Source: Fidelibacterota bacterium
GTDB taxonomy: Bacteria > Fidelibacterota > UBA8477 > JABMPR01
Assembly (NCBI GenBank): GCA_018673925.1
Contig: JABHBL010000056.1
Span: 1 to 64,000 of the forward strand
Direction of reading: 5' to 3'
DNA: 64,000 nucleotides
Part shown: in pieces, positions 50,055-55,839 of the stretch
Position numbering within the stretch: position 1 is the first letter of the stretch
Layout of the letters: every line of letters begins with the position of its first letter
Notes under the pieces: generated by a model
Seen by the model: only the letters and a program-made list of their open reading frames with translations
The model's database searches: none
What the model was told of the DNA's origin: nothing
Position numbers and translations under genes: made by a program

Positions 50055-51332
50055 TTATCTACTCCGACGACTCACCAGTTTATTTAGGAAAGTTGATTTT
50101 AATGGCTCAATGGCCATGAGAGCCTTAACGGGAGATGTTTTTTCGAGCAGACTTAAGACCCTACCAAGGGTTCGATGACTGAATCCATCATAGTCATAAA
50201 AGATAAGATCTGACAACTTGCCTCGCTCAATGGCCATGGCGGCATATTTATCGAAGCTGCTTTCCGGTGTGTAAATTCTTTGCGGGCGTGCCTTCATTGT
50301 GGCTGAGCCCGTAGTGCAATAAGTAGGACAGACACCGCAACCGAGACAAACCTCCTCATCTCGAACTGCTTTCTGTTTTTTACGACCATCCTTTTCATAT
50401 TTCACCATTTCAATGGCATCCACCGGGCAGGCAGATTCGCATTTCGCACATCCCGTACAGGTCTCCTCATTGATATCCAGGATCCAACTGGATGACACGA
50501 TGGCATTATTCATATCAAAGGTTTTAATAGCCTCCATCATACCACAGCAACATCCACAACAATTACAGATATAACTCAGGTCGTTCTGAACATTATCTCC
50601 AGTCTGAGCCAATCCAGCTTCCTTGCTCATTTCCAGAAGTCTCATGGATTCAGACTCGGAAATATGTTGCGCCAGACCATTATGAACCAGAACATCTGCT
50701 GCCCCACCAAATGAGAGACAATTATTTTGCTCATGATCACAAGCCTTGCCTAAATGTTCAGCTTTATGACGACAGGCACACAGAGAAACTGCATGAGAGC
50801 TGGCGTTTTTAACTACATGAGATGCCCGATCATAGTCCAGGATTTCGATATGATCTCCCTGGGGCAGAGATTCTTCTCGGGGTAATGAACGACCCACCTG
50901 GGTCTGTCCCTCAAAAACGGCCCGACTAAAGCGATCATTCTCAAGCATATATTTTTCAAAAAGCTGGGCAATTTCTGCCATGGGGGCGTCTGGTCTAGAC
51001 CGCATAAATGTGTATTCAAAAAAACCGATGACCACAGGTGGGAGTGCCACATAACGATGACCCTTACGCTCGATATCCACCACCAGTCCGCGATGAGCTA
51101 AATCCTGAATCAGGTCATTCAGCTTTGCTTCATCCATCTGGAGTTTTTCAGCCAACTTGGAGGTTCGAGTTGGGATCGTAGGGAAACGACGTACGAGCCT
51201 GGCTTCATCAGGCGTGAATAATAGTTCTAAAATTTTTGTAAAGGTTGGTGATGCAGGAGCACCTGTTATGTGACGGTCAAACCGTTGTTGAAGTAGGCGG
51301 TAGTCTCGATGCTCAGTGACAATATGTCCCAT
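50055..51332 (-). CDS. winged-helix / cysteine-rich 4Fe-4S protein
   Basis: About 425 residues from the ATG at 51332, which has GAGGGA five bases upstream; a TTG eight codons earlier is rejected. Residues 30-95 look like a winged-helix (LAEKLQMDEAKLNDLIQDLAHRGLV). A cysteine-rich centre follows with CACRHKAEHLGKAC (185-198) and CNCCGCCCGMM (256-266). Two ferredoxin motifs are CTGCAKCESACP (292-303) and CLGCGVCPTYC (329-339). I know similar '4Fe-4S dicluster' proteins annotated without function. The combination suggests a redox-sensing or electron-transfer role. It is divergent from pyrG across 341 bases. Confidence 0.83.
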   Translation of the reverse strand: MGHIVTEHRDYRLLQQRFDRHITGAPASPTFTKILELLFTPDEARLVRRFPTIPTRTSKLAEKLQMDEAKLNDLIQDLAHRGLVVDIERKGHRYVALPPVVIGFFEYTFMRSRPDAPMAEIAQLFEKYMLENDRFSRAVFEGQTQVGRSLPREESLPQGDHIEILDYDRASHVVKNASSHAVSLCACRHKAEHLGKACDHEQNNCLSFGGAADVLVHNGLAQHISESESMRLLEMSKEAGLAQTGDNVQNDLSYICNCCGCCCGMMEAIKTFDMNNAIVSSSWILDINEETCTGCAKCESACPVDAIEMVKYEKDGRKKQKAVRDEEVCLGCGVCPTYCTTGSATMKARPQRIYTPESSFDKYAAMAIERGKLSDLIFYDYDGFSHRTLGRVLSLLEKTSPVKALMAIEPLKSTFLNKLVSRRSR

Positions 51333-51409
51333 AGTTCCCTCGAATTGAATTAGCAAATAATATAGGTGCGAAGAGCAACAATATATGCCCTGTTTTTAAT
51401 TGAAAGAGC

Positions 51410-53459: not shown

Positions 53460-54143
53460 ATGCAAGCTAAGACTGTAGCCAGTTCGGGTCATAGACAAAG
53501 ATTAAGAGATCGATTCTTCCAAAACGGGATTGAATCCTTCCATGACTATGAAGTCCTTGAACTCTTGCTCACCCTGGCAACGCCCAGGAAAGACATGAAG
53601 CCCCAGGCCAAGGAACTCATCAGAAGATTTGGAAGCCTGGCGGGAGTATTGGAGGCTCCTACCTCAGTTCTCCTCGATGTGAAAGGGATGGGACATGCCA
53701 ACGTTTTTGTGCTCAAACTTCCCCATGCAGTTGGCCGGAGATACTTATTTGAGCAAACAGAGGGCAAAGATTATCTAAGATCCAGTAAAACAGTGAAAGA
53801 TTATCTCACCCACAACTTACGTGAAAGAAATCGTGAGGTTTTTATGGTCATATTCCTGGATGGTCAAAATCAGATTATCAAAATGGAAGAGCTTTTTAGT
53901 GGATCTCTCACCACATCGGCTATCTACCCAAGAGAGGTCATCCAGAAGGTCTTGAGCTATGATGCGGCCAGTGTCATTCTGGTTCACAATCACCCATCAG
54001 GTTCACTGACCCCCTCTGGAAGTGACCGCGCGGTCACCAAAAAACTCCAGGTTGCTCTGAATTCCATAGATGTAGAAGTTCTAGATCATCTCATTGTAGG
54101 GGGGAATGACTTTTTCTCATTCGCGGATCATCGTTTACTATAA
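53460..54143 (+). CDS. radC: RadC family JAB-domain protein
   Basis: A 227-residue RadC (DUF2466). An N-terminal helix-hairpin-helix-like region (GHRQRLRDRFFQ, VLDVKGMG-type text near 72-80) precedes the JAB/MPN domain. Its JAMM metal motif is complete: His176 and His178 in VHNHPSG, Ser186 and Asp189 in TPSGSD. The C-terminus LDHLIVGGNDFFSF is standard. Despite its name, a repair role is doubtful, and its biochemical function remains unsettled. GAGGAG stands seven bases before the ATG. A diverged, ligand-less paralogue follows directly downstream. Confidence 0.95.
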   Translation: MQAKTVASSGHRQRLRDRFFQNGIESFHDYEVLELLLTLATPRKDMKPQAKELIRRFGSLAGVLEAPTSVLLDVKGMGHANVFVLKLPHAVGRRYLFEQTEGKDYLRSSKTVKDYLTHNLRERNREVFMVIFLDGQNQIIKMEELFSGSLTTSAIYPREVIQKVLSYDAASVILVHNHPSGSLTPSGSDRAVTKKLQVALNSIDVEVLDHLIVGGNDFFSFADHRLL

Positions 54144-54265: not shown

Positions 54266-54293
54266 TTGACAATCATTAATGATGATCTATATT
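54266..54293 (+). promoter_or_regulatory. near-consensus promoter of the pseudo-RadC / cytochrome operon
   Basis: A perfect TTGACA (54266-54271) and TATATT (54288-54293) with a 16-base spacer. Transcription should start near 54300. This places the ATG at 54279 inside the promoter, and supports translation from the TTG at 54330. Confidence 0.8.
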
Positions 54294-54302
54294 ATCATCA
54301 TT
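54272..54302. promoter_or_regulatory. overlapping AT-rich palindromes over the promoter (possible operator)
   Basis: ATCATTAATGAT (54272-54283) is a perfect 12-bp palindrome in the spacer. AATGATGAT (54278-54286) and ATCATCATT (54294-54302) form an inverted repeat around the -10 box. The NAT-rich pattern recalls Fur-type boxes, but no regulator is identified. Confidence 0.5.
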
Positions 54303-54329: not shown

Positions 54330-54878
54330 TTGAGATTTGGATATCTAATAATATTAGTAGCTGGTTTGTCATCGTGCAGCCTATCTCCCCAGGATGCTCC
54401 TAATACGCAACATTCCTCAAGACGAGCTCACTCCGGAAAATACTTTATCGGAGATACACATGGTGCGGGTAGCCGCAACCTATTTGTCAAACCTGATGGC
54501 AAGAATTGTCTTAACTCCAGTAGGGCGGTGTCCGAATATCTGAATAAGCATCATCGCGAACGTAACAGGGATGCTGTTTTTATTATCCTCCTTGATGGGA
54601 AAAACCAGGTGATAAATATGGATGAGTTAGGATCAGAGGTTATCTCTGCACCCTCATTTTATATGTCGGAGGTGACACAAAAAGCGACCGACCTGGGAGC
54701 TACATCAGTGATCCTGGTGCAATGCCTCCCTACACGATCATCAACACCTTACAACCACGATCGAGAGATATCAAAAAACATGAAGCTGGCTCTTGGAACT
54801 ATCGATGTGGGACTGCTGGATCATCTCATTGTAGGTCGCAATGAGTGTTTTTCCTTTGCTGACAATCATCTTCTATAA
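54330..54878 (+). CDS. RadC-derived pseudoenzyme with a lipoprotein signal peptide
   Basis: About 182 residues from TTG 54330, with GGAGA four bases upstream. The N-terminus is a lipoprotein signal ending in lipobox GLSSC (Cys16). Residues 45-182 align with the JAB domain of the RadC encoded just upstream: RERNR, LLDGKNQVI, ATSVILV, STP, IDVGLLDHLIVG and FSFAD. By eye nearly half of roughly 126 positions are identical. The JAMM ligands are gone: His-Asn-His-Pro has become QCLP and the Ser is Tyr; only the final Asp remains. An exported, ligand-less RadC is unlike any family use I know. The frame is intact, which argues against a decaying pseudogene. The cytochrome gene follows after 13 bases. 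Confidence 0.78.
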   Translation: MRFGYLIILVAGLSSCSLSPQDAPNTQHSSRRAHSGKYFIGDTHGAGSRNLFVKPDGKNCLNSSRAVSEYLNKHHRERNRDAVFIILLDGKNQVINMDELGSEVISAPSFYMSEVTQKATDLGATSVILVQCLPTRSSTPYNHDREISKNMKLALGTIDVGLLDHLIVGRNECFSFADNHLL

Positions 54879-54891
54879 GAACGGAAAACAT

Positions 54892-55839
54892 ATGAGAGTT
54901 CTTTTAATTCTAATGCTCATGCTTAGTCTCATATCATGTAGCATTCTATTACCTATCAAGGTTGATAGGGCCGGTGATATCAATATTATATCCACACCTG
55001 AACGACTGGTTCGTGGTGAATATCTTGCCGAGCATGTCGCGGGTTGTACAGATTGTCACAGCCAACGTGATTGGTCAATTTTTATGGCCCCTGCTAAAGC
55101 AGGAACACACGGTGCTGGGGGCGAGGTATTCAATGAGGAGATGGGTACACCTGGGACAATATATGCACCCAATATTACACCTGCAGCATTGGATTCCTGG
55201 ACAGATGGAGAAATTGTGCGGGCTATTACCAGCGGGGTGAACAAAGAGGGGGTCCCACTTTTCCCTATTATGCCCTATCCAAATTATGCACGAATGAGTC
55301 AGGAAGATATCTATAGTATCGTAGTTTATCTGAGAACGCTTAGGCCGATCGTGAATGATGTTCCCAAACGTAAGTTGAATTTTCCTTTAAGTCTGATCGT
55401 CCGTACCATTCCAAAACAAGCTGAGTTTGGTACTCTCCCCTATAAAACGGATACCGTTGCCTACGGGAAATACATGACAACAGCAGCAGGCTGCATGGAC
55501 TGCCACACACCTATGAAAAAAGGACAACCGGTAGCAGGGATGGAATTCGCAGGGGGGTTCACAATGGGAATGTTATCTGGAGGTACAGTGAATTCAGCTA
55601 ACATTACACCTCATGAAACAGGTATTAAAACCTGGACGAGAGAGGGCTTTATCCAGCGCTTTAAAGCTTTGGATTTTCCTGCAGCACGTGAGGCCCCGCT
55701 GTCAGAGAATCAGGTAAACACGCCCATGCCCTGGACATATTACGCGACAATGCAGGCTGAGGATTTAGGTGCGATCTACGATTACTTAAGAAGTATTCCT
55801 GCTATAGATAATACAGTTGTAAAGTACCCCGAATTGTAA
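54892..55839 (+). CDS. diheme c-type cytochrome lipoprotein
   Basis: About 315 residues from the ATG at 54892 (the frame also opens at 54841 inside the previous gene). The signal peptide ends in lipobox LISC (Cys16). Two class I cytochrome c domains follow: CTDCH (52-56) and CMDCH (201-205), each with a downstream Met-Pro axial-ligand candidate (IMPYPNY, TPMPW) and SEEDIYSIVVYLR-like helices. Similar diheme proteins act as electron-transfer subunits of dehydrogenases. It should be membrane-tethered on the periplasmic side. It shares a promoter with the RadC-like lipoprotein and has no dehydrogenase gene beside it. Confidence 0.88.
   Translation: MRVLLILMLMLSLISCSILLPIKVDRAGDINIISTPERLVRGEYLAEHVAGCTDCHSQRDWSIFMAPAKAGTHGAGGEVFNEEMGTPGTIYAPNITPAALDSWTDGEIVRAITSGVNKEGVPLFPIMPYPNYARMSQEDIYSIVVYLRTLRPIVNDVPKRKLNFPLSLIVRTIPKQAEFGTLPYKTDTVAYGKYMTTAAGCMDCHTPMKKGQPVAGMEFAGGFTMGMLSGGTVNSANITPHETGIKTWTREGFIQRFKALDFPAAREAPLSENQVNTPMPWTYYATMQAEDLGAIYDYLRSIPAIDNTVVKYPEL

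Follow-up and report, generated by a model that had tools for sequence, protein, structure and literature searches.

Genes and features of the radC locus

The window, a 64,000-nucleotide stretch of DNA that is part of a 3.41 Mb assembly, contains an intact radC gene followed directly by a gene for a predicted lipoprotein with a second RadC-type JAB domain. The gene order is CTP synthase, radC, the lipoprotein gene, a cytochrome gene and a convergent acyltransferase gene. The features discussed below are the following.

53460-54143, + strand: radC, intact, presumed source of the duplicate; PF04002 and PF20582; TIGR00608 and NF000642 above cut-off
54266-54293, + strand: sigma-70-like promoter, TTGACA-N16-TATATT, before the lipoprotein-cytochrome pair; 11/12 consensus matches
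54330-54878, + strand: predicted lipoprotein of JAB/RadC fold without JAMM ligands; TTG start, 182 aa; PF04002, 84.3 bits; orthologues in 7/19 genus genomes
54330-54377, + strand: predicted signal peptide MRFGYLIILVAGLSS with lipobox Cys16, invariant in 7/7
54507-54509, + strand: Cys60 (Tyr in RadC), gained, invariant, by alignment
54570-54572, + strand: Asp81, replacing the JAMM catalytic Glu, by alignment
54720-54728, + strand: Gln131-Cys132-Leu133, replacing RadC His-Asn-His, by alignment
54750-54752, + strand: Tyr141, replacing the JAMM Ser, by alignment
54759-54761, + strand: Asp144, the sole JAMM residue kept, by alignment
54846-54848, + strand: Cys173 (Phe in RadC), gained, invariant, by alignment
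54892-55839, + strand: downstream gene of the pair, encoding a diheme c-type cytochrome lipoprotein (CTDCH, CMDCH); ATG start, 314 residues

The lipoprotein frame runs from TTG 54330 to the stop at 54878, the extent already given in the earlier note, and 13 nt separate its stop from the cytochrome ATG at 54892. TTG is the start codon in all seven orthologues and the earliest possible one of the frame in three of them (L006, L007 and L010). An upstream ATG at 54279, also open in frame, was rejected as the start, as it lies 5' of the conserved -10 box (54288-54293) and TTG is found in 7/7. Elsewhere in the window, positions 50055-51356 encode a protein that contains 4Fe-4S ferredoxin domains and resembles the TrmB-like family weakly, with a score under the cut-off of that family.

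Residues 62-180 of the lipoprotein match PF04002 (RadC-like JAB) with 84.3 bits and an E value of 8.5e-24 against a Pfam cut-off of 22.1, far beyond chance, which substantiates the claim of a RadC-type JAB domain right behind radC. No other Pfam family was found in the lipoprotein at E 0.001. At the same threshold it shows no match to UPF0758_N, whose place is taken by the signal peptide and a linker; the neighbouring RadC carries UPF0758_N and retains HNHPSG..PSGSD. The proposed loss of the helix-hairpin-helix part agrees with this difference. In BLAST comparisons with the radC proteins of the seven genomes, lipoprotein residues 44-182 correspond to RadC residues 89-227 (48-50% for the two best RadCs), and the multiple alignment with RadC of the genus is ungapped for ~139 residues. 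Scores of 72 bits for TIGR00608 (cut-off 133.85) and 84.2 bits for NF000642 (cut-off 180) place the lipoprotein under the curated NCBIfam RadC cut-offs. It resembles RadC (UPF0758; PF04002, TIGR00608) in this ungapped homology, in the JAB fold of its models and in adjoining its probable parent gene, but differs in having neither an N-terminal domain match nor a JAMM site, in falling below both NCBIfam cut-offs, and in possessing a predicted signal peptide and two fixed cysteines.

The former metal site, the predicted fold and the signal peptide

The JAMM motif is given in PMC300881 as a Glu followed by H-x-H, Ser and Asp (EXnHS/THX7SXXD), and PMC11981726, where it treats RadC-like DinG, places the Glu of RadC-like domains at the start of strand 1. 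In 7/7 orthologues this Glu is replaced by Asp81, the first His by Gln131 and the Ser by Tyr141, with Asp144 retained. The second His is Leu133 in six and Gln in G015 (QxQ); the intervening residue is Cys132 in six and Asn in G015 (QNQ). Both zinc-ligand His residues are replaced in every orthologue, and four of the five JAMM residues are gone. The changes of HxH to QxL and of the JAMM Ser to Tyr had been read correctly from the window, and the metal-site loss is fixed among the seven. The replacement of the catalytic Glu by Asp81, the kept Asp144, the two gained invariant cysteines and the conservation in relatives are additions to that reading. G015 is the deepest lipoprotein branch, and its QNQ may be a preserved step between HNH and QCL.

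HNHPSG is kept by the RadCs from the motif scan of fetched loci and by the RadC fragment of G014. The viral RadC-alignment scan, from which the best 80 of 527 were kept and 52 checked, yielded RadC-type stretches with HNHPSG in 48/52 and HxHP in the remaining four. At fourteen positions, all the lipoproteins share a residue that none of the 17 RadCs has. Such class-specific changes occupy 6/17 columns of the former active site (81 and 131-146, a stretch defined by the JAMM motif) and 8/107 of the others, with a Fisher p of 0.004 that is uncorrected for kinship and comes from a test devised after the alignment was seen. This distribution suggests that the former active site was rebuilt rather than left drifting. 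Because four of five JAMM residues are lost, the domain is presumably non-enzymatic.

The JAB fold is retained in two AlphaFold2 models. The first was calculated from six lipoproteins and no RadC sequence, an alignment unbiased towards RadC, and has a mean pLDDT of 57.9 (low confidence); from residue 61, eleven of its thirteen blocks lie at 56-82 and the last two at 52 and 32. Its best Foldseek matches are chains of 2qlc, the Chlorobium RadC crystal structure (E 5.2e-10, TM 0.80 by target). The alignment of the second model also included 58 RadC-type sequences, 50 of them from viral contigs and 8 from bacterial loci and the window, which biases it to RadC. Its mean is 72.1 and its TM 0.86; from mature residue 41 onward, twelve of its thirteen blocks score 76-95 and the other 65. 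RadC and its structure have been described before, as have inactive JAB/MPN scaffolds; among the latter, the inactive (MPN-) members Rpn8, CSN6, KIAA0157 and EMC8 are metal-less and reused as structural subunits. The lipoprotein is like these MPN- members in that the JAB fold is kept in the models, both zinc-ligand His residues are lost and the Asp stays. Unlike these eukaryotic proteins, it is bacterial, derived from RadC, predicted to be exported and encoded beside a cytochrome gene. Foldseek lists BRCC36-KIAA0157, Rpn8-Rpn11 and EMC chains at E 0.01 or worse, beside equally weak cytidine deaminase matches.

All seven orthologues have Arg or Lys at position 2 following the TTG start, a hydrophobic run and an invariant Cys16. 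A lipobox had been ascribed to this gene, and its product is one of the 4/7 lipoproteins that fit a strict PROSITE-like pattern; of the three that depart from it, G018 has Cys at -4, G006 has Trp at -2 and G015 has Asn at -1. Among the neighbouring cytochromes, 6/7 fit the same pattern. Cys60 and Cys173 are present in 7/7 lipoproteins at positions occupied by Tyr and Phe in the genus RadCs; in 17/17 genus RadCs the C-terminal 141 residues are free of Cys. In both models DSSP assigns Cys60 to a short strand or bridge and Cys173 to the start of the last strand, with modest confidence around them (blocks of 44 and 52 in the first model, 65 and 85 in the second); this is consistent with a disulfide but no proof of one. 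A Cys60-Cys173 disulfide is probable, and a fixed pair of new cysteines is expected of an exported, disulfide-bonded domain. The conserved signal peptide, supported by these two cysteines, points to export of the lipoprotein.

Distribution, selection and history

Orthologues occur in 7/19 genomes of one Ca. Neomarinimicrobiota genus (G000, G004, G006, G007, G012, G015 and G018), each located between radC and the diheme cytochrome lipoprotein gene. In a 245-genome set of the phylum, searched at E 1e-30 or better, these seven score at least 292 bits and the next match 156.5; those matches beyond the seven that were fetched as loci carry HNHPSG. A scan of genome contigs with two short peptide patterns, which distant relatives could escape and in which near copies of the window genome were possibly omitted, gave seven loci, namely five of these lipoproteins (Candidatus Neomarinimicrobiota MAGs) and two Bacteroidota RadCs. 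When the RadC of the window served as the only query, a viral scan confirmed nothing. The range is small, one genus as far as searched, and the gene is dispensable, since it is missing in most of that genus.

Relatives were also inspected for disrupted frames, the expected mark of a decaying duplicate, and all seven frames are intact. Nei-Gojobori dN/dS values for the lipoprotein are 0.071-0.185 (12/21 pairs with measurable dS, the rest saturated), compared with 0.013-0.037 for radC (13/21 pairs) and 0.041-0.083 for the cytochrome (9/21). The lipoprotein gene evolves faster than radC and is under purifying selection, not decaying.

In a 42-row tree, the lipoproteins form one clade (100/99) within a group that also holds the genus RadCs (87/73), and this combined group is separate from the RadCs of the other genus in the family and from those of the order and phylum. 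Such a placement is as expected from a radC duplication, and the location beside radC points to a tandem one. The length of the lipoprotein branch, together with a program warning about the long branch and odd letter make-up of G015, leaves the exact position among the genus RadCs unsure.

Sixteen radC-to-acyltransferase loci were read; the lipoprotein and cytochrome genes are both intact in seven, neither is intact in nine, and in none is a single one of them intact. Additionally, the G017 contig ends 327 bases past radC with no lipoprotein seen, the end of radC in G014 is followed by another gene and the pair is absent, and G008 has no radC match. Mapped onto a tree built from the flanking genes of 17 genomes, presence of the pair needs five changes, at least four of them forced by strong branches, and is no more clustered than shuffled labels (187-192 of 500 shuffles were as low); these change counts cannot separate gain from loss. 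One gain in the ancestor of 11 genomes that group together (89/87, midpoint root), with four joint losses (G009, G010, G011 and G013), is inferred, because the lipoproteins form one clade at one locus and branch broadly as the genomes do, as judged by eye. In G009, which lacks the pair, an in-frame relic of the cytochrome C-terminus lies between radC and the acyltransferase gene (L016:1399-1497); this is direct evidence of one loss and indicates that a cytochrome gene was formerly there. A gene for a small GIY-YIG protein is located between radC and the pair in G015 (L011:2223-2513) and between radC and the acyltransferase gene in G013 (L019:2004-2384), with a relic in G011 (L013:1356-1497), so this gap takes in other DNA too.

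The cytochrome neighbour and the possible role of the lipoprotein

Close orthologues of the cytochrome (73-100% identity) occur in the same 7/19 genomes as the lipoprotein, so the pair noticed in the window recurs in relatives as a pair. At E 1e-10, cytochrome matches extend to 11/19 genomes of the genus; outside the seven they are relatives at 35-37% and one at 56% in G008. The G008 relative lies beside a small single-heme cytochrome gene, without a lipoprotein (L042:1495-2433 and 1161-1556). Two CxxCH motifs are present in 7/7 cytochromes. The solved-structure relatives of the cytochrome are cytochrome subunits of glucose, fructose, alcohol and aldehyde dehydrogenases (best E 8.1e-26). It is like the cytochrome c subunits of membrane-bound fructose, glucose and alcohol dehydrogenases in matching them, but has 314 residues and two CxxCH, whereas the matched chains have 444-486 residues in five of six cases and 320 in the sixth. 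The genes flanking it are those of the lipoprotein and the acyltransferase, and not a dehydrogenase.

A promoter shared by the two genes had been proposed. The site at 54266-54293 has TATATT in 7/7 orthologous loci and an exact TTGACA in 5/7. A consensus scan of the region found no more promoter-like sites than shuffles did, and the weight of this promoter therefore rests on its conservation. The conserved promoter-like site and the 13-nt gap favour co-transcription, and a terminator-like hairpin at 54825-54845, which lies in the last part of the lipoprotein gene and precedes the cytochrome gene, speaks against it in this genome. By folding, the corresponding site gives a weak hairpin or none in each of the six other genomes; the hairpin here is probably due to chance and argues only mildly against one uninterrupted transcript. 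A dyad, TGAT-N-TATATTATCA, covers the -10 box at window positions 54283-54297 and is partly conserved in the seven loci; it is possibly the operator of a dedicated regulator. A wide regulon of this dyad was not seen in its own genome, where one exact and two one-mismatch matches were found, compared with one for a reversed-pattern control.

The earlier interpretation of an exported, zinc-less RadC fold reused outside the cell membrane is largely supported. The explanation that accounts best for the data, and in which our confidence is evenly balanced, is that a radC duplicate has become an exported, non-catalytic binding subunit for the diheme cytochrome lipoprotein. A tandem duplicate of radC would have arisen once, in an ancestor within the genus, lost its N-terminal helix-hairpin-helix part and zinc site, and acquired a lipoprotein signal peptide and, probably, the Cys60-Cys173 disulfide. 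The product would be exported, held by a lipid anchor at the periplasmic face, and co-produced with the lipid-anchored diheme cytochrome c. It would most likely be non-catalytic, with the rebuilt face of the former active site (D81, Q131, R136, S138, Y141 and E146) serving as a binding surface that docks or stabilises the cytochrome, or hands it a partner. Confidence in the cytochrome as that partner is moderate, as adjacency alone could yield joint loss. A more specific version, in which the RadC/JAB fold has left the cytosol and, with its new disulfide and remade active-site face, acts as an assembly or electron-transfer subunit of the periplasmic diheme cytochrome lipoprotein, is rather less likely than not and is offered tentatively. 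If true, it would give an electron-transport role to a fold otherwise known from zinc peptidases and inactive scaffolding relatives.

The exported pseudoenzyme might instead bind another ligand, such as peptidoglycan, a substrate or an outer-membrane protein, the two genes sharing a locus and perhaps regulation. This alternative deserves serious attention, though we lean against it. Adjacency and a shared promoter are no proof of contact, and joint loss is weak proof of interaction because the genes adjoin and one deletion removes both. A related cytochrome exists in G008 without the lipoprotein, and the conserved linker RRA..GKY, in which R31, R32, A33, K37 and Y38 are invariant in 7/7, could be a separate binding part. 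The count over the 16 loci (seven with both genes, nine with neither, none with one) weighs for the cytochrome.

An enzyme of altered chemistry, acting for example through Asp81, Gln131, Cys132 and Asp144, would also explain why new residues have become fixed at the former active site without drift. This is improbable, as the JAMM site has lost four of its five residues, both zinc-ligand His among them, and Cys132 is Asn in G015.

The failure of the strict lipobox in 3/7 orthologues leaves some room for the hydrophobic N-terminus being an uncleaved anchor that holds the JAB domain on the cytosolic side. The charged residue 2, the short hydrophobic stretch, the invariant Cys16 and the acquired cysteines make this quite improbable, as does the neighbouring c-type cytochrome; c-type cytochromes are matured outside the cytosol. 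That the gene is a non-functional or decaying radC duplicate is hardly credible: its change is faster than that of radC (dN/dS 0.07-0.19 versus 0.01-0.04) and it is absent from most of the genus, but intact frames in 7/7, purifying selection and conservation of the promoter, the start codon, the signal-peptide Cys and the two gained cysteines rule out decay.

If the duplicate is indeed an exported binding subunit, the locus represents a natural experiment in which a fold has been parted from both its metal site and its compartment while the parent gene still adjoins it. It would be a testable example of a JAB domain becoming inactive independently in bacteria, and G015 provides a species with a possible intermediate (HNH, QNQ, QCL). 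The function of RadC is itself unsettled and its DNA repair role is doubted, according to PMC11981726, citing Attaiech 2008. Among the matches listed in a search of the open full-text literature, a scope outside which most subscription journals lie, no title or opening of an abstract concerns an exported, ligand-less or inactive RadC. The genome of the window contains two more short RadC-type JAB genes (L002 and L003, on contigs C60 and C68), and the copy on C68 keeps HNHPSG.
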